27,638 nucleotides of DNA from a virus. The position numbers and the translations under genes are program-made. Location of the stretch: the IMG/VR virus record IMGVR_UViG_3300021961_000490, positions 1 through 27,638 of that record; one strand, given 5' to 3'. The notes below the pieces were generated by a model. That model did not search any database, was not told where the DNA came from, and was given only the letters and a program-made list of their open reading frames with translations. Of this stretch, positions 13,705 through 22,032 are shown in pieces (position 1 is the stretch's first letter; each line of letters begins with the position of its first letter).

Positions 13705-14280
13705 CTAACCCCATTTTCGTTTTGGCCATAATTATTTGTGCAAAATCGGGCTAAAGCTGCGGCCGCCACCGAGCGGGCGCTCGATCGATGCCCGCGTCGA
13801 GCGAGCGTTCGATCGATGAACCAAATCGGCGCCAAGGGACCCGTAACCCGTTGATATGCCTCAGGTTTCCTGCGCCCCGGCCCACGGGCCACGGCCCGAG
13901 GCCCACCATTGCCGAGCGAGCGCTCGATAGACCCCGCTCAGGGCCCACGGTTCGCGGCTCGAGGGCCCTGCTATTTCCGGTAATTATTATTACCGGAAAT
14001 AGTGATTCGAGGGAAATCAAGCACTTAGCTAAAACGCGCTGCCCGGCGACCCGGCAAACACTACATGTTGTGTCTTGGACCACTAGCCGGGGGCCACGGA
14101 CCACGGCTCAGGGGCCATCAAGCGAGCGCTCGCTCGGCGCCCGCCGCGCGCGCCGGGGGCCGGCCCGGCCGCCCCTCCTTTCCCGGTTTGGCAAACAGCG
14201 ACGGACTTGGGCTCTTAAGAGAAGAGCGGAGAGGCCCAGCCAGTGCCGGGTAAAATTGTCTCGTTGAATGTAGAAAAGTA
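13705..14280. repeat. GC-rich palindrome-rich intergenic region between divergent transcripts
   Basis: No convincing gene lies here. The sequence is much richer in G+C than its neighbours and contains repeated palindromes: a 21-bp element at 13770-13790 and 13798-13818 (two mismatches apart, 28-bp period), and relatives at 13913-13930 and 14121-14137, all built on CGAGCGAGCGCTCG. It also has three stretches of the GGCCACGGnCC type (13879-13905, 13939-13968, 14088-14117), one perfect AT-rich hairpin (13971-14002) and a run of almost pure G/C (14136-14175). It separates the leftward terL operon from the rightward small-gene cassette. Possible roles are packaging site, origin or control region; none is shown directly. 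Confidence 0.75.
13971..14002. repeat. Perfect 14-bp inverted repeat
   Basis: CTATTTCCGGTAAT (13971-13984) and its exact complement ATTACCGGAAATAG (13989-14002) flank a TATT loop. The hairpin is an AT-rich island inside GC-rich repeats. No T-run follows on either strand, so it is not a standard terminator. It could be an operator or a structured origin or packaging element. Confidence 0.8.
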
Positions 14281-14291
14281 GTTGAAAGTAG

Positions 14292-14364
14292 TTGACGCCT
14301 GTATTTGGCTTGTTCATACTTCGTTGTAAGTCGGGGATTCGCCCCGCCCATACAGGAGACAGAC
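14292..14364 (+). promoter_or_regulatory. Promoter-leader module A (plus-strand cassette)
   Basis: TTGACG (14292-14297) and CATACT (14315-14320) are 17 bp apart. They are followed by TTCG, a CGGGG-ATTCG-CCCCG hairpin (14332-14346) and ATACAGGAGA with the ribosome site just before ATG 14365. The same order and much of the sequence recur in modules B, C and D on the minus strand. A GTAGTTGA repeat precedes the -35 box. Confidence 0.75.
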
Positions 14365-14565
14365 ATGCAATTATTCAGCGACACTAAAGGCTGCAAGACT
14401 TACGTGAGCCCACAAAACGCCATCAAGGCGGCCGATCCGGCTGCCTTAGAACAATTTAAGTGGGTCATGGCGGTTAATGAAGGCCGATATCACATCGTCT
14501 TCATTGGGCAGGATGCCCTTCAGCACTGCCTGCAGAAGGGCCACTTCTGCACCTACGGTTTCTAA
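14365..14565 (+). CDS. Small hypothetical protein, first gene of plus-strand cassette
   Basis: The 66-residue product begins at ATG 14365, with AGGAG 6 nt upstream in the conserved leader. It has a C-terminal half (NEGRYHIVFIGQDALQHCLQKG) that looks like a small alpha/beta fold, and three Cys residues. I do not recognise a family. It is the first of three small plus-strand genes with their own promoter and terminator, a moron-like layout. The strong promoter and leader imply high or early expression. A longer in-frame extension upstream is rejected because it would translate through the leader hairpin. Confidence 0.75.
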   Translation: MQLFSDTKGCKTYVSPQNAIKAADPAALEQFKWVMAVNEGRYHIVFIGQDALQHCLQKGHFCTYGF

Positions 14566-14578
14566 CTCTAATCAATAC

Positions 14579-14594
14579 GGCCCCTTCGGGGGCC
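14579..14594 (+). other. UUCG-tetraloop leader hairpin
   Basis: GGCCCC-TTCG-GGGGCC forms a 6-bp stem with a very stable C(UUCG)G loop, about 18 bp before the start of the next gene. There is no T-run, so it is more likely an RNA stability or translation-control hairpin than a terminator. Confidence 0.75.
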
Positions 14595-14612
14595 ATTACT
14601 GGAGATAAGACA

Positions 14613-14912
14613 ATGTATAAATATGAGATCGTCAACACTTATCCAGACGCCTTAAGTTGCAAATTCAAGCCAAGCGACTTTAACAATGTTATTAACGTCA
14701 TGCTCTATTGTCTTTCCGAAGAAGCAAAAAAATACGATGGATATTTAACCTTCTATCTCAATGGCAAAAAATCAAGTGGGGAGCAGCTCTTACAGGCCGC
14801 AGAAGCCGACAGGGATGCTTTCTGGGAGAAGAAAAACGAGACTCACAAACAAATATCGGTTAGCACTGGCATAACTGCCTTTGTCAAGAAGACAGTTTGG
14901 GTACGAAAATAA
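14613..14912 (+). CDS. Hypothetical protein, second gene of plus-strand cassette
   Basis: This 99-residue protein starts at ATG 14613, with GGAGA about 8 nt upstream. It has an N-terminal strand-rich part (YKYEIVNTYPDALSCKF), helices (FNNVINVMLYCLSEEAKKY), a strand segment YLTFYLNGKK and a basic C-terminus. No family is recognised and no catalytic motif stands out. It lies between two UUCG hairpins, which mark the gene borders within the same transcript. Confidence 0.75.
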   Translation: MYKYEIVNTYPDALSCKFKPSDFNNVINVMLYCLSEEAKKYDGYLTFYLNGKKSSGEQLLQAAEADRDAFWEKKNETHKQISVSTGITAFVKKTVWVRK

Positions 14913-14917
14913 TAACC

Positions 14918-14933
14918 GGCCCCTTCGGGGGCC
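14918..14933 (+). other. Second UUCG-tetraloop leader hairpin
   Basis: This copy of GGCCCC-TTCG-GGGGCC is identical to the one at 14579-14594 and lies about 18 bp before the third cassette gene. The repetition suggests a deliberate element in front of each gene. Confidence 0.75.
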
Positions 14934-14951
14934 ATCATTGGGAATGAGACG

Positions 14952-15167
14952 ATGCCCGAGACAACTGACAAGATTAATTTGATGGTCGCGAATTACCGCA
15001 AAGGCATTTTGGGGACGCCTGACGCCCCTCACAGGGGCAGCAGCCTGCACCATAGGTTTTGGCAAGGCTATTTTGGCGAAGTGAAGCCCGGCCAGTTCAG
15101 AAACACCCTCATCTACCCCTGCGTTAAAGCAGGCGCCATCTGCGCCGCGCAGGACAAAAAACCGTAG
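14952..15167 (+). CDS. Small protein with weak ribosome-modulation-factor-like pattern
   Basis: The 71-residue product starts at ATG 14952 after a GGGAA-type ribosome site. Its centre, YRKGILGTPDAP followed by SSLHHRFWQGYF, resembles the GxxG...P...(R)xxWxxGY pattern of RMF and related short phage proteins. This is a motif impression only. Its last 55 bp overlap the 3' end of the convergent nuclease gene on the minus strand. A terminator 23 bp downstream ends the cassette. If it is RMF-like it could bind ribosomes; otherwise the function is unknown. Confidence 0.65.
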   Translation: MPETTDKINLMVANYRKGILGTPDAPHRGSSLHHRFWQGYFGEVKPGQFRNTLIYPCVKAGAICAAQDKKP

Positions 15168-15553
15168 ATTATGCCCCACTCCACCGACGCCAGCGGCCAT
15201 TGTGCCGCTGGTTTCGTTTTCAGGACCCCATTTTCATGCAGGCCCTCAACCTGATCCCCTCTGTAGAGCCTTATAGTGGCCGTAGGGCGATGTTCTACCA
15301 TAACCCATACCGGACTACCTATCTGAGCGTGTCGTAGCTGAAAAGCTATCTGGTGAGGGCTCAGGCGAACTTTATTCCCGGCTGTCACCACTTTCAGCTC
15401 GACGAGGACAAAGCCTTTGCCCGGCAGAGCGAGGAGGCAGTCTGGCAGGCCCAACCCAACGCGATTTTCGAGACGCGTCAGCAGCACGCCGTGCGGAGTC
15501 AAGCCCCGCTTCACTCGCTGATAAAGTTTAGCTTCAGGACCTTGTGCGGACAT
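15113..15553 (-). CDS. PD-(D/E)XK nuclease, VRR-NUC-like
   Basis: The 146-residue product, taken from ATG 15553, has an N-terminal helix (GPEAKLYQRVKRGL), then RLENRVGLGLPDCLLAL and GFVLVELKVV, followed by LSPHQIAFQLRH. The PD...ELK pair is the PD-(D/E)XK nuclease signature, and the following Ser-Pro-x-Gln helix is typical of VRR-NUC and related structure-specific nucleases. It may process recombination or packaging intermediates. The start overlaps the small terminase end by 20 bp, so the two genes are probably translated together. The C-terminal region overlaps the convergent cassette gene and its terminator. Confidence 0.8.
   Translation of the reverse strand: MSAQGPEAKLYQRVKRGLTPHGVLLTRLENRVGLGLPDCLLALPGKGFVLVELKVVTAGNKVRLSPHQIAFQLRHAQIGSPVWVMVEHRPTATIRLYRGDQVEGLHENGVLKTKPAAQWPLASVEWGIIYGFLSCAAQMAPALTQG
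15190..15220 (+). terminator. Rho-independent terminator of the plus-strand cassette
   Basis: CCAGCGGC (15190-15197) and GCCGCTGG (15204-15211) form a perfect 8-bp stem with a CATTGT loop, followed by TTTCGTTTT. It is oriented to stop plus-strand transcription and lies inside the antisense nuclease coding region. Confidence 0.85.
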
Positions 15554-16268
15554 CTGCGGGTAACGGCACGTCGTTATCAATCTGGACCTGACCCGCAAGC
15601 GGGTCATCGGGCTCGTCGGGCTCGTCGGGCGCCAGCTCGCCATCATCCTCGAACTCCTCGAGCGGCGTGAGCGACCTGACCAACTGCTCTGGCGTCACGT
15701 CGATGATCGCCTGCGGTGGCGGGCCGCCGTACATGGCTTTGATTTCCTCGAGCTTGCGCCTCACCTCATCTGCACTCATGCTGTCGATGGTGCCGTGCCT
15801 GATTTCTTTACGATCGACGTAGATCGTGCCCAGTGCCTGCCCTCGGCGATACTCTGCGCTTACAGCGGCGCCGTAGTTGCCGGCAGCCAGAGCTTGATCT
15901 CGAATGTGTTGTAAATCACGTAAATGCCTGTCGATAGTAGTGCCGTACTTTTCAGCCACCTCCCTGCGATACTGCTGAATTGCAGCGACAATTTGTGGAT
16001 TTCGGCGTGGATCGGTCAACTCGTTCGCAATCTTTGAGGCCTTCTCGGCAGGATAGCCTGCAGCTATCGCTGCTTGTTTGAGCGACTGCTTGCCCTCGCC
16101 GTCCACGAGCTCTTGAATGAACTTCCAATGCTTGGGAGAAACAGTCTTCGACTGTTCCTCGAGTGTCCCGACATCCACCTGCAAGCGCGTCTGCAGTGAA
16201 CGCTTCTTGCGATTGTCAGTTTCAAAAGGGCTCTCGTTGAAAATGTCTTTGATGTTTTTACTCGCCAT
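15534..16268 (-). CDS. terS: Terminase small subunit
   Basis: The 244-residue protein shows the terminase small-subunit pattern. A helix-turn-helix region (about 43-95) contains SPKHWKFIQELVDGEGK, SLKQAAIAAGYPAEKASKIA and RRNPQIVAAIQ. A central helical oligomerisation region follows (RREVAEKYGTTIDRHLRDL, ALAAGNYGAAVSAEYRRGQ), then an acidic C-terminus with a DEPDEPDDP repeat. It should recognise the packaging site and load the large subunit. ATG 16268 overlaps the upstream stop (TGATG), with GAGGAT 7 nt before it. Its separation from terL by an inverted cassette is unusual. The repeat array just upstream of its operon is a candidate target. Confidence 0.85.
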   Translation of the reverse strand: MASKNIKDIFNESPFETDNRKKRSLQTRLQVDVGTLEEQSKTVSPKHWKFIQELVDGEGKQSLKQAAIAAGYPAEKASKIANELTDPRRNPQIVAAIQQYRREVAEKYGTTIDRHLRDLQHIRDQALAAGNYGAAVSAEYRRGQALGTIYVDRKEIRHGTIDSMSADEVRRKLEEIKAMYGGPPPQAIIDVTPEQLVRSLTPLEEFEDDGELAPDEPDEPDDPLAGQVQIDNDVPLPADVRTRS

Positions 16269-16528
16269 CACTTGATCCTCGTGCAGGTCCAAAAATTGTC
16301 GGTCTTCAGGACGTTGAATTTTCTGCCCGTTGTCTTGCGATAGAACGTCGCAAGAGCGTTACGTGCCTTCACCGCGCCCTCTTCACTATCGATCACGAAG
16401 AAATCCCCGACAATCATCGCGGCGAACGGATATTGCGGGCGACCTGTCGCCCAGCGTCTCAAGCTGTGCCTGCGCGGAACGATCGAGCGGTTACACCGGG
16501 TTACGTCTGTTTTTTCACTTTCAAGCAT
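16268..16528 (-). CDS. DUF7303-like small protein
   Basis: The 86-residue product has a basic N-terminus (RRHSLRRW) and a domain with YPFAAMIVGDFFVI, then ATFYRKTTGRKFNV and a final WTCTRIK. This is the pattern I associate with DUF7303, a small phage domain of unknown role. A second protein of the same type lies at 18627-18872. GAGGT lies 6 nt before ATG, and the stop overlaps the terS start. Two copies of the GGTTAC repeat fall inside its 5' coding end, so that end may do double duty as a DNA site. Confidence 0.7.
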   Translation of the reverse strand: MLESEKTDVTRCNRSIVPRRHSLRRWATGRPQYPFAAMIVGDFFVIDSEEGAVKARNALATFYRKTTGRKFNVLKTDNFWTCTRIK

Positions 16529-16853
16529 GTGTTACCTCAAGTGTTACCCCACTAACTTCGTTAAGACAGTGGGAAAGTTACAGTTCTTTTATAATTGTTT
16601 CATGGAAAATTTTATATATATCAACAAATTGAAATGTTGGGGTACGTTTCGTATGTTTTTCAAAAAAAGTTACACCGGTTACGTCTGTAGGACTTAAAGT
16701 GTAACCTCATCTGTAACCACTAAAATCAATAAAAAACATACACTTACGTGATTTGGTTACACCTCTCATTGTTTTACGCATGAAACAAAAAAAAACGAAA
16801 AAAAACCATGAAACAATGTTAAAGGGCCGAAACGGGTGTAACCCGGTGTAACC
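16489..16853. repeat. Iteron-like array of GGTTACACC / GGTGTAACC in an AT-rich intergenic region
   Basis: The core GGTTACACC or its complement, allowing small changes, occurs at 16489, 16499, 16529, 16541, 16669, 16677, 16699, 16712, 16755, 16835 and 16845. A longer unit of about 20 bp, GTTACACCGG(G)TTACGTCTGT, is present at both 16490-16510 and 16669-16688. A 12-bp inverted repeat, ATTGTTTCATGG (16594-16605) and CCATGAAACAAT (16806-16817), encloses an AT-rich part with A-tracts. From 16529 to 16945 no believable gene is present. The layout fits a replication origin, a terminase-binding pac region or a multi-operator control region. Confidence 0.75.
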
Positions 16854-16945
16854 GGCTAAAATCCCACCAGTCCCGTGGTCCCTGAGCCATGAGCCCTGAT
16901 CCTCGCCCCCTGAGCACTGAGACGCGCCACAAGGCCCCTGAGCCC

Positions 16946-17404
16946 TCACAGCCTGTCCTCGTACTCACCCACAGGGGGCACCCCTGCTGGAGCCGTAGAG
17001 CTCTCTACAGGGCCACTACAGGCCATCTCAATCAGCATGTCTAAGTAGTGCCGTGCCTTGCGGAGGTCCTCGATGCCCCCCTTCGAGCGCCAGCGAGTGA
17101 TGTACTTCACCACATTCGCTTCGTTCCAGCCGAGGTTGTTCTTTGTGATATATTCGTTCGGCTGAATTGCCAAGTGCTGATAGTGAGTGCCGCCGACCTG
17201 CGTACCGAATGCGCTCGGCGCTGCCTTCGCTAGCCTTGCCCCGACTGACTTGGAAGGCGCCTTGCGTAGACGTTTGCCGCGCATGCACCAGTCCTTCAGC
17301 GTGTCGATCGGGACATTGTGTTTGCGCGAGAGCTGCTTGAGCGACACGTCGCTGTCCATCCACTCCTGCCGTATTGCGTCAACTAATTCTTGAGGATGCT
17401 GCAT
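16946..17404 (-). CDS. HTH-DUF3310 fusion protein
   Basis: The 152-residue product starts at ATG 17404 behind GGAGGG with about 7 nt spacing. Residues 1-45 look like a homeodomain-type helix-turn-helix (ELVDAIRQEW, VSLKQLSRKHNVPIDTLKDW). Residues 65-135 match DUF3310: GGTHYQHLAIQPNEYI, NVVKYITRWRSKGGIEDL and ARHYLDMLIE. DUF3310 is common in phages and its role is unclear. The HTH suggests DNA binding or a host-type invertase/transposase-like reader domain joined to it. The gene lies at the end of a run of tightly packed genes and just before the repeat array, so it could be an array-binding protein; this is a guess. Confidence 0.8.
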   Translation of the reverse strand: MQHPQELVDAIRQEWMDSDVSLKQLSRKHNVPIDTLKDWCMRGKRLRKAPSKSVGARLAKAAPSAFGTQVGGTHYQHLAIQPNEYITKNNLGWNEANVVKYITRWRSKGGIEDLRKARHYLDMLIEMACSGPVESSTAPAGVPPVGEYEDRL

Positions 17405-17405
17405 G

Positions 17406-17552
17406 TTAGCCCTCCGATTCGCCGTCGCCAACGAGCTGTTCGATTTGCTCCTCGAGCCACTCGACGCGTGCGAAAAGCGCTTCCATCTCGCGAAAGCGCT
17501 CGATCGTGTCATAAGCCTCTTCGCCTTCCAGTTCAATAATTATCTTTGCCAT
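17406..17552 (-). CDS. 48-residue acidic coiled-coil protein
   Basis: Reading from ATG 17552 gives a 48-residue product (begins MAKIIIELEGEEAYDTIERF, ends QLVGDGESEG) with heptad-like hydrophobic spacing and many Glu residues. It overlaps the acetyltransferase end by 20 bp and stops 1 bp before the next ATG, while its last codons supply the next gene's GGAGGG site. This compact packing supports it as a real gene. Its function is unknown; it may dimerise. Confidence 0.7.
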   Translation of the reverse strand: MAKIIIELEGEEAYDTIERFREMEALFARVEWLEEQIEQLVGDGESEG

Positions 17553-18003
17553 CAGCTACCCCCGTGTCATATTCGAAGTTATTTGAAAACTCGTTTTCTT
17601 GCAAAAGCCGGGCGCCGTTGCCCAAATGAAAGCGAGCAGCCTGCTCAGTCTTGGGTGACATCGTGACAACCCTGTGCTGCCCCTTGAGCGCATGCAGCAG
17701 CGAGTTGATCAGTTTTCTCCCGGCACCCTTTTGATTCGACCATAGCGAATACGGCACGACGATGTCGCCGCGCTGAGGGTCCTTCGCCGCTTCGAGAAGG
17801 TCCTCCTCTGTCTCGGGTACAAACCACGTGTAAGCAACGCACACCACCGCGTGCGTCACAACACCGAAGCCCTGCTTATCGATCAGAGCGTACACTTCGA
17901 AGGGCTCTTCAAAGCGCCTGAGGGGGCCGCCGATAAAATTCAGCGGACGCACAGGGTCCTGTTCAATTGCGTGTATAAAGTCGGCCGAGCATTTGATCAA
18001 CAC
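17533..18003 (-). CDS. GNAT-family acetyltransferase-like protein
   Basis: The 156-residue product, from GTG 18003, contains VPYSLWSNQKGAGRKLINSL, which carries the GNAT acetyl-CoA-binding pattern (Q/RxxGxG/A) between about residues 85 and 105, then VVTMSPKTEQAARFHLGNGA, the usual C-terminal strand-helix of the fold. AGAGGA lies 8 nt before GTG and overlaps the previous gene's end. Two ATG codons at 18021 and 18036 are alternatives but are less well spaced from a ribosome site. The substrate is unknown. Phage GNATs of this type are common among early genes and may modify host proteins or small molecules. Confidence 0.75.
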   Translation of the reverse strand: MLIKCSADFIHAIEQDPVRPLNFIGGPLRRFEEPFEVYALIDKQGFGVVTHAVVCVAYTWFVPETEEDLLEAAKDPQRGDIVVPYSLWSNQKGAGRKLINSLLHALKGQHRVVTMSPKTEQAARFHLGNGARLLQENEFSNNFEYDTGVADGKDNY

Positions 18004-18007
18004 AGTG

Positions 18008-18385
18008 TTAGTCCTCTTCATCCATGTCTTTTTCATCAGCCCGTAAAACTTTTATCTTTTGCCCGTCGGCCAGATAGCGCTTGTCGCCGATGAGGATTTC
18101 CTTAAGCGTCTTTGCGCCGCGATAGCTCACGACCTCATCCATCGGGAGTTGGGGAAGTACCCGGCGCACGTAGTGCGCGAGCAGGTTGTACTGGTGCAGC
18201 TTTTTTTCACCGTCTGAAAAAAAGGCAGCGAACGGCAGCCGCCTGTAAGTTTTTTTATTCAACACGGCCCAGCGGCTCGGCCCGCCACCCACTTCATAAT
18301 TCGAGGTGATGTTTGTCAGATCGATCCCGTAGGTGATCAGATTGCCTAGCGTGCCTGTTCTTGCGCGAATGCGATAGTCTGTCAT
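18008..18385 (-). CDS. Hypothetical protein
   Basis: This 125-residue protein has a basic N-terminal half (LNKKTYRRLPFAAFFSDG), a helical middle (LHQYNLLAHYVRRVLPQL) and an acidic C-terminus (ADEKDMDEED). It starts at an ATG overlapping the previous stop (ATGA). I do not recognise a family. It belongs to the tightly overlapping run from 19926 down to 16946. Confidence 0.7.
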   Translation of the reverse strand: MTDYRIRARTGTLGNLITYGIDLTNITSNYEVGGGPSRWAVLNKKTYRRLPFAAFFSDGEKKLHQYNLLAHYVRRVLPQLPMDEVVSYRGAKTLKEILIGDKRYLADGQKIKVLRADEKDMDEED

Positions 18386-18627
18386 TGTTCAATACCCGCA
18401 AAGCAGAGGTCTGCAATCTCTTGCCGAGCACGAGTGACAATGCCTAGCAATTTATCAGCCGTCGCCGCAGGATCGTCGATGGCCCCCTTGAGTGCCAAAA
18501 GAACCGCTATCTCATCGAAGCTCTTTACAAGTTTCAGATGTTCGTTCATCAGCTCGCGGCGCTTCACGTTGTGTCGCTTTGTGATTTCGTTCAAGTCTTC
18601 GACCAGCTCGCTTACATTTGCTTTCAT
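18382..18627 (-). CDS. Small helical hypothetical protein
   Basis: The 81-residue product starts at ATG 18627 (TAATG overlap, GGAGAG 7 nt upstream). It is almost all helix with heptad patterns: VSELVEDLNEITKRH, LMNEHLKLVKSFDEIAVLL and LLGIVTRARQEIADLCF. It is probably a coiled-coil dimer. An earlier ATG at 18642 lacks a ribosome site. No function is recognised. Confidence 0.7.
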   Translation of the reverse strand: MKANVSELVEDLNEITKRHNVKRRELMNEHLKLVKSFDEIAVLLALKGAIDDPAATADKLLGIVTRARQEIADLCFAGIEQ

Positions 18628-18872
18628 TATTCTACTCTCCATATTCTGATGCCGCTGCCTTCACGGCGTGCCACAAATTTCCAACCCCTTCTGAGACCAA
18701 CAGCCATAGCCGCCTTGTACGGCCTGCCGCCGCTGTCCTCATTCTCAAAGTGTGCGCTCTGGCCCGGCTCCATATGAGCGAAGGGCCACTTAGTGGAACG
18801 GGAAGTCAAGTAGGGTATCGGGATACCTTCTTCGACAACCACGGTTCGATAAACTTTCTTAACCGCTGGCAT
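18627..18872 (-). CDS. Second DUF7303-like small protein
   Basis: This 81-residue protein shares the pattern of the protein at 16268-16528: a WPFAHMEPGQSAHF segment, then AMAVGLRRGWKFVARR and a final IRIWRVE. The two are diverged but appear to have the same fold, so this is an old duplication or independent acquisition. It is coupled to both neighbours by TAATG overlaps. The function is unknown. Confidence 0.7.
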   Translation of the reverse strand: MPAVKKVYRTVVVEEGIPIPYLTSRSTKWPFAHMEPGQSAHFENEDSGGRPYKAAMAVGLRRGWKFVARREGSGIRIWRVE

Positions 18873-19054
18873 TATTTTTCCTCACAAATAATTGATGGGT
18901 TGTAGGGAGGCCAGCCCTGCTCGCCCCCCGTTGTTGCCCACAGGTTAACCATTTCGCAATAAACTGACTCGTGGTCCGTGGCGCGTGCCACGTCATCGTT
19001 GCCTGCCCAACCAAGGGCGGCCACGAGGGCCGCCGTGAAAATAAGCTGTTTCAT
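18872..19054 (-). CDS. Small exported protein with N-terminal signal peptide
   Basis: The 60-residue product starts at ATG 19054 (TAATG overlap). Residues 1-25 are a classical signal: a Lys near the start, a hydrophobic core (LIFTAALVAALGWAG) and an ARA-type cleavage site. The mature part of about 35 residues has two Cys (33 and 57) and a GWPPYNPS segment, consistent with a small periplasmic domain with one disulfide. No lipobox is present. A role at the cell envelope, such as superinfection exclusion, is a guess. Confidence 0.7.
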   Translation of the reverse strand: MKQLIFTAALVAALGWAGNDDVARATDHESVYCEMVNLWATTGGEQGWPPYNPSIICEEK

Positions 19055-19926
19055 TACAGCCCCCACCGTGCTCGGCAGATGGGGCCGATGCCGAGGCGGA
19101 CAGACTCCTCGTTTGTGAGCAGCCTGCTGCAGCAGCTACACTGGCCAGTGTTGTGGCCGTGGGCTGTGAGCGCAGCCAGCGGGTCCGCTGCCAGTGCCTG
19201 CAGCTCCTGAGCGATCTCGGCGCGGGCTTCGCGAACGGCGAAGAACTTGCCCTCTGGGCTGATCTTGCCAGCGTAATTACCGTTGTCCTTGACGTACAGG
19301 TGCCCGGCGTTTTTGCCGTTGGCTGGGGCCAGCGACACGCGCAGGCCGTTGATGACCAGCGCAGGCTTCTTCAGGCCGTTGCTCTGGGCGGAGGCAAACA
19401 GCTCGCCGATGCGGGTGAGGTCGATCACTGGGGCGTTGGCTTCGCGCTCGGCGCGTGCTGCATTGCGCTCGGCGTCGCGCACCTGCTGCTTGGCGTAGCC
19501 GTTGACGATGCACGCCAACTGCTTTTCGGACAGCTCGCCGTACTTGCGGGCTTTGCCCAGAAGGTCCTGATAAAACGGGGACCAAGTGGCGGCGACCAGC
19601 CACTGGTAACCGGCGTCGCCGATGACCGCAACGATCTGGGCCTTAGCGCCCTCGGCGTTGTTGGCTTCCTTGCGGGCCTTGCGCTCAATGCGCTGGGCGC
19701 GGGCCTTCTTGCGATCCGCTGCGGATGTCAAGAAGTAGCCCTTGCCGTTGCAGGCAAAGCAGTCCGACCGCTCCTGATAGCGGCGGACCCCTTGATACTT
19801 CCCAGTGCCGCCACAGTGGGCGCAGGGATACTGCTGGGTCTTGGCGTAAGGGCCAGACGAGGAAGAAACCTCGATCTGATCGATCGGGGTTTCTAGAGAA
19901 GAAAAGTCAAAGTCAAAGGTGTTCAT
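19054..19926 (-). CDS. DnaJ-type zinc-finger plus DUF6011-like protein
   Basis: This 290-residue protein has two zinc modules. Near the N-terminus, CAHCGGTG (C35, C38) and CFACNGKG (C56, C59) form a DnaJ-type cysteine-rich finger. At the C-terminus, CSCC (C263-C266), ESVRLGIGPIC (to C284) and a final RWGL match the DUF6011 pattern found in phage and plasmid proteins. The middle is Lys/Arg/Ala-rich and helical, with a strand pair (ALVINGLRVSL and GHLYVKDNGNYAGKI). It may bind nucleic acid or act as a chaperone-like protein. It is expressed from module B and leads a run of nine overlapping or abutting genes. Confidence 0.8.
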   Translation of the reverse strand: MNTFDFDFSSLETPIDQIEVSSSSGPYAKTQQYPCAHCGGTGKYQGVRRYQERSDCFACNGKGYFLTSAADRKKARAQRIERKARKEANNAEGAKAQIVAVIGDAGYQWLVAATWSPFYQDLLGKARKYGELSEKQLACIVNGYAKQQVRDAERNAARAEREANAPVIDLTRIGELFASAQSNGLKKPALVINGLRVSLAPANGKNAGHLYVKDNGNYAGKISPEGKFFAVREARAEIAQELQALAADPLAALTAHGHNTGQCSCCSRLLTNEESVRLGIGPICRARWGL

Positions 19927-20001
19927 GTCTGTATCCTGTATGAGGCGGGGCCGATCCCCGACTTAGTGCGAAGTATGAAGCTTATTGCTAACGACTGTCA
20001 A
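19927..20001 (-). promoter_or_regulatory. Promoter-leader module B
   Basis: On the minus strand TTGACA (plus 19996-20001) and CATACT (19972-19977) are 18 bp apart. They are followed by TTCGC, a CGGGG/CCCCG hairpin (19946-19960) and ATACAGGATA before ATG 19926. From the -10 box to the start codon it is close to module A. Confidence 0.75.
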
Positions 20002-20008
20002 CTATTAT

Positions 20009-20347
20009 TCACCACCCTCGTCGATAAATTTCTATAACTTCGTCTCGGAGCTGATCGAGCTCGTTGAGAACCCGGCCGAGCAACATCTTACGCAGCAACT
20101 GGGGAGCCGCGAGGTCAGTGGACGGCGCAGCAAGTGCCGCTATCCCAGCAGCGACGGCGTAGTCGTCGTCGCCGTTCAGCGTGTCGTAGACGTACTCGGC
20201 TCCAATAGGCGAATTGACGAGAACCTCCGCGACCCACGCAAGGGTCGTGTCGCTTGGCCAAATGTCGGGATCGTCGAATTCTTTGACAAAGTCGCGCGGG
20301 CACTCGGCAACGCAGTTCAAAATGATTTTTTTTATGTCGGCATTCAT
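20009..20347 (-). CDS. Hypothetical acidic protein
   Basis: This 112-residue acidic protein is helical, with IKKIILNCVAECP near the N-terminus, an Ala-rich middle (YAVAAGIAALAAPS) and a C-terminal LLGRVLNELDQLRDEVIEIY helix. It lies 14 bp after the antirestriction gene and probably shares its transcript from module C. No family is recognised. A role as partner of the antirestriction protein is possible but unsupported beyond position. Confidence 0.7.
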   Translation of the reverse strand: MNADIKKIILNCVAECPRDFVKEFDDPDIWPSDTTLAWVAEVLVNSPIGAEYVYDTLNGDDDYAVAAGIAALAAPSTDLAAPQLLRKMLLGRVLNELDQLRDEVIEIYRRGW

Positions 20348-20361
20348 CTGAGCTCTCCCAA

Positions 20362-21267
20362 TTACGCCGCGACCTGAGTCGCGGCGGGTGAATCGGCCTG
20401 CAGGCTGTGCAGGTACTCAGCGGCCTTGCTCGCGGCGCTGGCGGCGCGAACGATCAGGCGCTTGTCGTTCTTGAGGGCCTTGAGCCACGATGCGATGTAC
20501 TGGGCGTGGTCAGCACGGGGCTCGGCGCTGATCTGCAGGTCAGAGCACAGGAAAGTGGCGCCCAGCTCCGCGACGAGCTCCTCGGCAGCGTAGGCCTCAT
20601 CGCCGAAGGCAAGGCCCTTGACGCGGTCAAGACGGCTTCTGTGACCAGACCAGTGCACGAGCTCGTGGAGCAGGGTCGCGGCAAAGCATTCCTGAGCGCT
20701 GCTGGTCGGGGTGCCGACGAAGTCGGTGATGGCCGGAACCACGATCTTATCTGACAGGGGGCTGTAGAAGGCGCGGTCAGAGCCCACTGTAACGCGGATA
20801 TCGGCGCCGGTAGCGTGGGCGAAGTCGAGGGCAGCCTTAACCCGCTCGTCGGCCTCTGCGGGCGTCTCAGGGGCCTCAGGAACAGGCAGGGGCTCAACAC
20901 CCTCTACTTGCTCTGCGTTGAACACAGCGGTCTGGCGCAGGAAGGGGATTTTCTTGCCATCCCCAGTCTCTTTGTCTTTGATCTCAAGAGACTTGAAGAA
21001 GACGATGTAAGCGCCGGCTTTCTGGCCAGCGCGGACTTGGCAGCCTTTGTCTTGCCAAGCCTTGTAGGTGCCCCACCTGTGGTCGGCGAAGCCGGCTGAC
21101 CACAGCAGGATCGGATTGATCCCTTGATAGGCCTTGCCAGTGCTGATGCTGATTGGGCGGCGGGCGGTGCCACCGTTGCCGATCCACGGCTTGACCCAGC
21201 CGGTGCCGTGGGTTTCGATCAGGTCAACTATCGTGTTTGTGATGGTCTGGTAGGCGTCGTGCTTCAT
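20362..21267 (-). CDS. ArdC-type antirestriction protein (ssDNA-binding domain + zincin peptidase)
   Basis: The 301-residue protein has the two-domain ArdC layout. Residues 1-120 match the N-terminal ArdC/DUF1738 ssDNA-binding domain (GTGWVKPW, GKAYQGINPILLW, RWGTYKAWQDKGCQVRAGQK). Residues 140-290 are a zincin-like metallopeptidase with HELVH at 201-205 and a downstream EELVAELGA at 229-237 supplying the third ligand. ArdC proteins protect incoming DNA from restriction on entry. The gene is led by promoter module C, consistent with prompt expression after infection. AGGAG lies 6 nt before ATG. The family and both motifs are clear; its substrate is not known. Confidence 0.9.
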   Translation of the reverse strand: MKHDAYQTITNTIVDLIETHGTGWVKPWIGNGGTARRPISISTGKAYQGINPILLWSAGFADHRWGTYKAWQDKGCQVRAGQKAGAYIVFFKSLEIKDKETGDGKKIPFLRQTAVFNAEQVEGVEPLPVPEAPETPAEADERVKAALDFAHATGADIRVTVGSDRAFYSPLSDKIVVPAITDFVGTPTSSAQECFAATLLHELVHWSGHRSRLDRVKGLAFGDEAYAAEELVAELGATFLCSDLQISAEPRADHAQYIASWLKALKNDKRLIVRAASAASKAAEYLHSLQADSPAATQVAA

Positions 21268-21342
21268 AACTTTCTCCTGTATAGACTAGGGCCAATCCCC
21301 AGCGATTTGCGAATAATAAAAGACAACAACTGCTACTGTCAA
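21268..21342 (-). promoter_or_regulatory. Promoter-leader module C (antirestriction gene)
   Basis: On the minus strand TTGACA (plus 21337-21342) and TATTAT (21313-21318) are 18 bp apart, followed by TTCGCAAATCGC, a GGGGATTGGCCC element and ATACAGGAGA. The spacer has a GACA...TTGTTGTC arrangement shared with module D, possibly an operator. Confidence 0.8.
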
Positions 21343-21358
21343 CTACTTTAAGACACTT

Positions 21359-21664
21359 TTAGCCATAGGCCCGGTGGCCCTTGATCCGCCACTTCTGAAT
21401 CACGGCGCGGCCAGTATCGTCTTCATCGACGACGACATAAGCCACAGTCTTCTTGACCAGCGCATAGCGCCAGCCACTATCGTTGACCGGTCGCTCGGAC
21501 ACCCACACGCGGTGGGGGTACTCGGTGTTGCGGCCGGTGGCCAGATCAGGATGCAACACAAGGCCTTCGCCGTGTGTGTCGTACTCGAACAGGTGGCCGC
21601 AGTCACACTCGGTGAAGCAGCCGCCGTCGAGGATGGGATAAACTGAAGAGGGTGCAAATGCCAC
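21359..21664 (-). CDS. Hypothetical Cys-containing protein
   Basis: The 101-residue product starts at GTG 21664, with AGGAG about 7 nt upstream in the conserved ATACAGGAGA leader. It has a short CFTECDCGHLFEYDTHG segment that may bind metal, then a strand-rich part (YPHRVWVSERPVND, AYVVVDEDDTGRAVIQKW). No family is recognised. It follows 21713-21928 and probably shares its promoter (module D). Confidence 0.7.
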   Translation of the reverse strand: MAFAPSSVYPILDGGCFTECDCGHLFEYDTHGEGLVLHPDLATGRNTEYPHRVWVSERPVNDSGWRYALVKKTVAYVVVDEDDTGRAVIQKWRIKGHRAYG

Positions 21665-21712
21665 GGTCTTTCTCCTGTATTGAGGTTGCTGCGCCCCAGC
21701 AGGGGCGATTTA
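21665..21712 (-). promoter_or_regulatory. Leader hairpin without its own promoter
   Basis: CGCCCC and GGGGCG (21692-21707) form a 6-bp stem with a 4-nt loop, followed by ATACAGGAGA and a GTG start. It has the leader half of modules A-D but no -35/-10 boxes, and so acts on a transcript from upstream. Confidence 0.7.
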
Positions 21713-21928
21713 TTAGATAGTTGGTTTAAGAATCCTAAAGGATGGGCTTATGCACTTGATCTCGCGAATTGCCTGCTCGATGCTTTTGTAGGTGTTATGA
21801 GGCGGAAGCAAAGCAGAAACAGTAAACTCGCCTTCCCACTCTTCGATCTTCCAGTGCTTGTCCCATATCTGGAAATCGTACTCGGCGTATCCATCTTCTC
21901 GCTCATATACTTTGGTCAATTTGCTCAT
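21713..21928 (-). CDS. Small hypothetical protein
   Basis: This 71-residue protein has strand-rich segments (YAEYDFQIWDKHWKIEEWEG) and a helix (SIEQAIREIKC). AGGAG lies about 11 nt before ATG, a little far. It is driven by module D. No family is recognised. Confidence 0.7.
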   Translation of the reverse strand: MSKLTKVYEREDGYAEYDFQIWDKHWKIEEWEGEFTVSALLPPHNTYKSIEQAIREIKCISPSFRILKPTI

Positions 21929-22008
21929 GTTGGGTCTTTCTCCTGTATGGGCCGGGGCGAATCCCTAGCGATTTGCGAATCATAAGGGACAACAATTGCT
22001 ATTGTCAA
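21929..22008 (-). promoter_or_regulatory. Promoter-leader module D
   Basis: On the minus strand TTGACA (plus 22003-22008) and TATGAT (21979-21984) are 18 bp apart. The run then has TTCGCAAATCGC, a GGGATTCGCCCC element and ATACAGGAGA. A TAGTTGA repeat lies upstream of the -35 box. It is very close to module C over its whole length. Confidence 0.8.
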
Positions 22009-22032
22009 CTATTATCAACTACTCTCCGCTTG

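Follow-up and report, generated by a model that had tools for sequence, protein, structure and literature searches.

A predicted sigma70 promoter and 5'-hairpin leader cassette reused ahead of accessory genes in a group of uncultured phages

Why several genes of one phage, on both strands, should begin behind what looks like the same promoter and leader is the question raised by IMG/VR virus record IMGVR_UViG_3300021961_000490, a fragment of 27,638 bases that was analysed whole and is referred to here as the window. The original prediction had located modules at 14292-14364 (+), 19927-20001 (-), 21268-21342 (-) and 21929-22008 (-), with a promoterless fifth leader at 21665-21712, and had drawn the genes behind them together as one regulon. 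All four modules and the fifth leader were present as located, and a single promoter-leader module of about 90 bases indeed heads four transcription units, on both strands, its promoter and leader parts being conserved and the module recurring in relatives. The modules are probably best read as portable cassettes, each joining a sigma70 promoter to a 5'-hairpin leader, that serve to express accessory genes strongly. The following elements were recovered with a profile hidden Markov model (HMM) built from relatives (contigs of relatives are given as L numbers).

14268..14367, plus strand: module A (held-out HMM E=2e-11; L001 carries an identical module)
19924..20015, minus strand: module B (held-out HMM E=3.6e-6; orthologous module in L001)
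21265..21356, minus strand: module C (held-out HMM E=6.9e-10)
21929..22022, minus strand: module D (held-out HMM E=6.6e-9)
21665..21712, minus strand: leader E, without a promoter (HMM E=0.0097)

Module A consists of an A-rich upstream sequence (GTAGAAAAGTAGTTGAAAGTAG), a -35 hexamer TTGACG (14292-14297), a 17-nucleotide (nt) spacer, a -10 hexamer CATACT (14315-14320), the hairpin CGGGG-AUUCG-CCCCG (14332-14346), the extended Shine-Dalgarno (SD) sequence ATACAGGAGA (14350-14359) and ATG at 14365. On the minus strand, module B reads from 20001 through TTGACA, an 18-nt spacer, CATACT and the hairpin CGGGG-AUCGG-CCCCG to ATG at 19926; module C from 21342 through TTGACA, the 18-nt spacer GTAGCAGTTGTTGTCTTT, TATTAT and the hairpin GCUGGGG-AUUGG-CCCUAGU to ATG at 21267; and module D, which has a tandem TAGTTGATAATAGTTGACA, from 22008 through TTGACA, the 18-nt spacer ATAGCAATTGTTGTCCCT, TATGAT and the hairpin GCUAGGG-AUUCG-CCCCGGC (one A.C mismatch) to ATG at 21928. 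The spacers of 17-18 bp (17 in A, 18 in B, C and D) and the TTCGC/T after the -10 (TTCGT in A, TTCGC in B-D, counting the last T of the -10) were as described in the original prediction, while the words presumed common to all leaders were only partly so: the hairpin word GGGGATTCGCCCC is exact in A only, with GGGGATCGGCCCC, GGGGATTGGCCCT and AGGGATTCGCCCC in B, C and D, and ATACAGGAGA is shared by A, C and D while B has ATACAGGATA. Leader E features a hairpin unlike those of A-D (CGCCCC-UGCU-GGGGCG, CGCCCCTGCTGGGGCG), followed by ATACAGGAGAAAGACC and GTG at 21664, with the start-adjacent ATACAGGAGAAAGAC at 21666-21680. Along the module, C and D were 75-90% alike in most 20-nt windows, whereas both flanks were unrelated, matching at chance level, suggesting a duplication confined to the module. 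The leaders of A and B were 86% alike over 36 nt and their spacers differed.

Within the window, single words such as the -35 or the hairpin word were not above expectation, the extended SD occurred six times against 0.58 expected, and the composite TAGTTGAC-spacer-NANNNT-leader-ATACAGGA occurred four times and in none of 1000 dinucleotide shuffles. In a listing of sigma70-like sites for 13.5-27.6 kb, modules A, B, C and D were also among the first five. A scan with a motif model, suggested with the original prediction, gave A, C, D and B at E-values of 2e-11 to 3.6e-6 and E weakly (0.0097), with the next window match at E=4.5. Training of the HMM used 30 modules from relatives and excluded both the window and its near-twin L001; these modules had been gathered with the motif seen in the window, so that the test was held-out, yet not blind.

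Relatives were gathered via the zinc-finger gene, ArdC, the terminase and DNA patterns. A scan for promoter, SD and open reading frame (ORF) identified 85 distinct modules, of which 69 are non-redundant; the reversed sequences gave none. At least two modules were found on 24 contigs and at least three on 17, with a maximum of five, and those module contigs that bear a terminase mostly had one 77-87% identical to that of the window. The leader-blind pattern AAAGTAGTTG, 50-80 of any base, ATACAGGAGA matched 40 stretches of viral contigs compared with two when the SD was reversed, and an HMM lacking the SD revealed lineages in which AGAAAGGAGA replaces ATACAGGAGA, some of which keep the GUCGGAUUGGCCGAC hairpin (L111, L116). 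Judged from sequence, the module is widespread among uncultured phages with a related terminase. The lack of further copies and of conservation in relatives, which had been named as a refutation, is clearly contradicted by the 85 distinct copies. A host or prophage origin was rejected, as no relative of the terminase large subunit was found in 84,980 bacterial and archaeal genomes and matches to the blind module pattern there were scattered and of chance order: 28 stretches, not checked singly, over unrelated phyla, relative to about 14 expected by our own estimate from the pattern length.

Anatomy was summarised over 60 confident modules, about nine of the 69 from less related phages or of poor appearance being excluded from statistics; A2 and T6 of the -10 were fixed by the search design. 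The consensus is AAGTAGTAAAAAGTAG-TTGAC, a spacer of 16-18 bp, a -10 that is often TGn-extended, a leader, ATACAGGAGA or AGAAAGGAGA, and ATG. Upstream of the -35, within AAGTAGTAAAAAGTAG, A was present in 88-98% of modules at positions -5 to -7 before TTG (98% at -5, 90% at -7), a block that resembles an UP-element proximal site. The commonest -35 hexamers were TTGACA and TTGACG with spacers of 16, 17 or 18 nt, and TGn preceded the -10 in 26 of the 60 modules; among the 15 modules whose spacer is 16 nt long, 11 had it. Start codons, ATG in 58/60, lay 31-50 nt past the -10.

Spacer dyads were found in 12 of the 69 modules against 3.4 expected, mostly due to one class with a strong dyad, GGTCTC-N7-GAGACC, overlapping the -10 (L094, L097, L010, L108, L111, L150, L169). 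It is the sole spacer class in the relatives that looks like an operator. Other spacer dyads (TTGCATG..CATGCAA, AGTAGT..ACTACT) occur in single modules of L111, a picture that would fit diversification of operators inside a common promoter frame. The spacers of A, B and C/D held no significant dyad; the GACA..TTGTTGTC element that C and D had been predicted to share is real, is absent from A and B and is included in this negative. A universal spacer operator was therefore rejected, as spacers with a dyad are confined to the GGTCTC/GAGACC class and a small number of isolated modules.

The leaders fell into six classes, with the remaining leaders having unrelated stems.

Leader class C1: GUCRGGG-N5-CCCYGAC
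Leader class C2: GUCGG-NUUGG-CCGAC
Leader class C3: AU-rich GUAGUUUAAUUUAAC, without a clear stem
Leader class C4: CCCGUACUUGAGUG
Leader class C5: GUCGGC-GCYUU-GCCGUC, in phage DSL-LC04, L139 and L186 ahead of different genes
Leader class C6: the window type

In about two thirds of the leaders, a hairpin occupies the stretch between the predicted +1 and a point just short of the SD. A hairpin score of at least 14 was reached by 23 of 35 distinct leaders compared with 2.4+/-1.3 in shuffles (maximum 6). The geometry was fixed: among 48 hairpin leaders the stem started 5-11 nt past the -10 in 44 and ended 1-4 nt ahead of ATACAGG in 45, which would place it at or a few nt from the mRNA 5' end if the predicted +1 lies about 7 nt past the -10. 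Partial covariation was observed in the long class, where 94% of cells pair and three of seven pairs were changed on both sides; among 500 shuffles, one reached the covariation score. Covariation was counted on that class only because a joint MAFFT alignment of the long and short hairpin classes shifted the stems by one column, and an arm-swap pairing test was set aside as the hairpins had been pre-selected for pairing. Loops of the GUC-stem classes keep NNNGG despite varying stem length (ATTGG 9, AGTGG 6, GTTGG 6, AATGG 5). In the window, predicted folds put the stem where expected and left the SD unpaired or nearly so. A known RNA family was rejected, with no Rfam match at the gathering threshold in the window, L094, L090, L097, L010 or L070, as was an intrinsic terminator or attenuator, since the A-E hairpins precede an SD rather than a U-run and do not appear among the terminators listed for their own strand.

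Across relatives, 37 gene families were found behind a module. Seven of the 14 families that recur carry at least two leader classes; module and gene therefore assort separately. The commonest classes, C1 and C2, precede nine and 11 gene families, MTDFNNIAAI and MYSDQFQAKI each have C1 at one place and C2 at another, and the zinc-finger cluster of the window has C6, C1 or C3 leaders depending on the phage. Conversely, the modules of DSL-LC04 (L166), L139 and L186 are nearly identical and the genes behind them differ.

These features suggest how the cassettes may function. A host sigma70-type promoter with the UP-element-like, A-rich AAGTAGTAAAAAGTAG would start a short mRNA of which the leader is the 5' end, and in the window class the leader would fold about 0-5 nt from the predicted +1, the hairpin ending 1-4 nt before a single-stranded extended SD. 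Unmodified host RNA polymerase would then give strong, presumably early, transcription, the 5' hairpin may shield the mRNA end from RppH and 5'-end-dependent RNase E, and the exposed SD would allow efficient translation. Whatever the insertion site or strand, each accessory gene or short operon, be it for antirestriction, a zinc-finger protein or small unknown proteins, could be expressed. Cassette and following gene reassort independently. In E. coli, it is established that 5' hairpins hinder access of RppH and RNase E and stabilise mRNA (PMC3997798). The hairpin is more readily understood as a structure lying at or close to the mRNA 5' end than as an established control site. Three observations weigh against this account: AU-rich leaders lacking a clear hairpin occur in several lineages of this phage group, so that hairpin protection is not universal; the shuffle control on covariation leaves effects of relatedness possible; and the window hairpins were matched in stability by shuffles of the same composition (z about 0), for which reason single-sequence folding energy was discarded as uninformative evidence for them.

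The regulon put forward in the original prediction would have a phage or host protein switch all module genes together by binding either the pentaloop hairpin, to control translation, or a site within the promoter spacer. The persistence of NNNGG loops through stems of varying length, the strong dyad of the GGTCTC/GAGACC class and the element shared by the C and D spacers are in line with it, and repression of the comparable extended start-associated sequence (ESAS) promoters of cluster K phages by a regulator has been deemed plausible (PMC11373665). However, in the window A, B and the C/D pair have different spacers, all lacking a significant dyad, the loops of other leader classes in this phage group are unrelated or the hairpin is missing altogether, and no regulator was identified in the window. 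We consider this account unlikely, if the most serious of the competing ones, and one regulon under a dedicated factor goes beyond the evidence, there being no operator common to the four promoters. Control through the RNA hairpin fares somewhat differently: because the pentaloop is conserved, recognition at the RNA level may still occur, while the hairpin itself is class-specific and is replaced elsewhere by AU-rich leaders. It is a rather speculative proposal that an RNA-binding protein of phage or host recognises the NNNGG-pentaloop hairpins and activates or protects every cassette mRNA simultaneously; if true, a gene landing behind a cassette would join a ready-made RNA-level regulon, and the leader classes would address different regulators.

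The modules might instead serve mainly as recombination linkers: brief stretches of homology between genes through which phages exchange accessory genes, with regulatory sequence conserved because it is also the site of crossover. This would account for the likeness of C and D being confined to the module between unrelated flanks, for one gene occurring with different modules and one module with different genes, and for the near-identical modules of L166, L139 and L186. It seems improbable, as the conserved positions are those of promoter, hairpin and SD at fixed spacing, pairing is kept despite changed letters, which is unexpected if homology alone mattered, and leader classes differ inside one genome. 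Finally, ordinary phage gene starts might by coincidence combine a common host SD, a sigma70 consensus and easily folding G+C-rich sequence, as the chance-level single words and unexceptional individual folds could indicate. This is refuted for practical purposes by the composite, the held-out HMM, the 85 modules against none in reversed sequences and the module-only homology of C and D; likewise, chance recurrence did not stand up to shuffles, controls with reversed sequence or the held-out HMM. Portable expression cassettes remain the reading that we prefer.

The genes that directly follow the window modules were as follows.

14365..15167, plus strand: cassette under A, three small ORFs (66, 99 and 71 amino acids (aa)) with no family match
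19054..19926, minus strand: gene under B, a 290-aa zinc-finger-like protein (DUF6011, PHROG 4046)
20362..21267, minus strand: gene under C, an ArdC-type antirestriction protein (ArdcN and zincin MPTase-PolyVal)
21713..21928, minus strand: first gene under D, a 71-aa ORF with no family match

The second gene under D, behind leader E (GTG at 21664, minus strand), encodes 101 aa (PHROG 23785); its homologue in L011, L094 and L153 has a full C2 promoter module, and in the window it has no promoter. Downstream of the gene under B, small ORFs on the same strand, some overlapping, extend towards the terminase small subunit gene. In the cassette under A, a CGGCCCCUUCGGGGGCC hairpin lies ahead of each internal start (14578-14594 and 14917-14933), and a 112-aa ORF (20009-20347) with a 9-bp hairpin ahead of it follows the ArdC gene. 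Strong hairpins just before the SD were also noted as a property of promoterless in-operon starts, at the two sites under A (GGCCCCUUCGGGGGCC twice) and at 21692-21707 (CGCCCCUGCUGGGGCG), with the 9-bp stem at the ArdC stop (20362-20385) standing before the next such start; in-operon starts of L094 and others are likewise preceded by hairpins, with UNCG or GNRA loops.

On the minus strand of the window, the C-terminal part of a primase, a UvrD-like helicase and a family A DNA polymerase are followed by small ORFs, then by the module region, the terminase small and large subunits, the portal protein and the major capsid protein. The closest named phage by the terminase large subunit was DSL-LC04 (78.9% identity), followed by 023Pt_psg01 (61%) and the Pelagibacter phages HTVC027P and HTVC023P (56-59%). 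DSL-LC04 is a metagenome assembly with a host that is predicted only (PMC10611076). Repeats were also seen between genes: palindromic CGAGCGAGCGCTCGATCGATG blocks and GGCCCACGG repeats between the terminase large subunit gene and module A (13770-14140), and further repeats, related to GGTTACACCGGGTTACGTCTG / GTGTAACCCGGTGTAACC, in the gap that precedes the terminase small subunit gene (16488-16521, 16821-16854, 16665-16695), which are possibly a binding or packaging site.

Literature searches by motif and keyword returned unrelated or comparative papers and none naming these modules. Many early promoters of phage T4 use host sigma70 and are conserved beyond the hexamers, including A-rich upstream sequence, as are the modules; they are not known to form a unit with a conserved hairpin and an extended SD. 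Morons of lambdoid phages are accessory genes with their own promoter that can move between phages, again like the genes described here, and their promoters are not known to be one shared module repeated within a genome. The 5'-terminal stem-loops that stabilise bacterial mRNA in ompA, papA and engineered bla (PMC3997798) have a hairpin at or a few nt from the 5' end, as the leaders would if transcription starts at the predicted +1, and an unpaired SD downstream, as is predicted here. Those are single leaders, whereas the structure here belongs to a repeated phage cassette known from its sequence.

The closest known system is that of the start-associated sequence (SAS) and ESAS of cluster K mycobacteriophages. 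The SAS is an AGGAG-containing start-adjacent 13-mer at 11-19 places per genome, with the consensus GGGATAGGAGCCC over 13 bp at 3-9 bp from start codons (PMC3203893), and the ESAS is an element of about 46 bp upstream of some SAS, with SigA-like hexamers 17-18 bp apart and a 17-bp imperfect inverted repeat judged to be a DNA site, as changes in it did not support RNA pairing (PMC11373665). Both occur throughout one phage group and are essentially absent from the host, and the gene families behind them vary between phages (PMC3203893; PMC11373665). A DUF3310 protein is encoded in the window (16946-17536, minus strand), and Adephagia gp51, also DUF3310, has been speculated to act in translating SAS-bearing genes (PMC11373665); the co-occurrence of DUF3310 and start modules in both phage groups may be coincidence, the domain being common among phages.

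Both systems place a start-adjacent repeat on many unrelated genes of one phage group (here 37 families, with at least two copies on 24 contigs) and a sigma70-like promoter in the extended element (here predicted, with hexamers 16-18 bp apart). No sequence similarity is apparent, as ATACAGGAGAAAGAC or AGAAAGGAGA adjoins the start here and GGGATAGGAGCCC in the SAS. The ESAS repeat lies inside the promoter, whereas the hairpin here lies between the -10 and the SD at the predicted mRNA 5' end, and three of its seven pairs changed on both sides, some keeping pairing, unlike the ESAS repeat with its lack of support at the RNA level. Since the gene behind a module is probably an accessory or possible anti-defence gene, AAGTAG-TTGAC ... 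ATACAGGAGA-ATG may provide a sequence handle for finding such genes in phage dark matter, and the module would offer a concrete mechanism for the expression of newly acquired phage genes. By sequence the module is not a member of the SAS/ESAS system, to which it is strikingly parallel in architecture and use. It would represent a second, sequence-unrelated case after cluster K of a group-specific gene-start unit on many unrelated accessory genes, here in uncultured aquatic phages and joining promoter, hairpin leader and ribosome site in interchangeable classes that assort independently of the genes.

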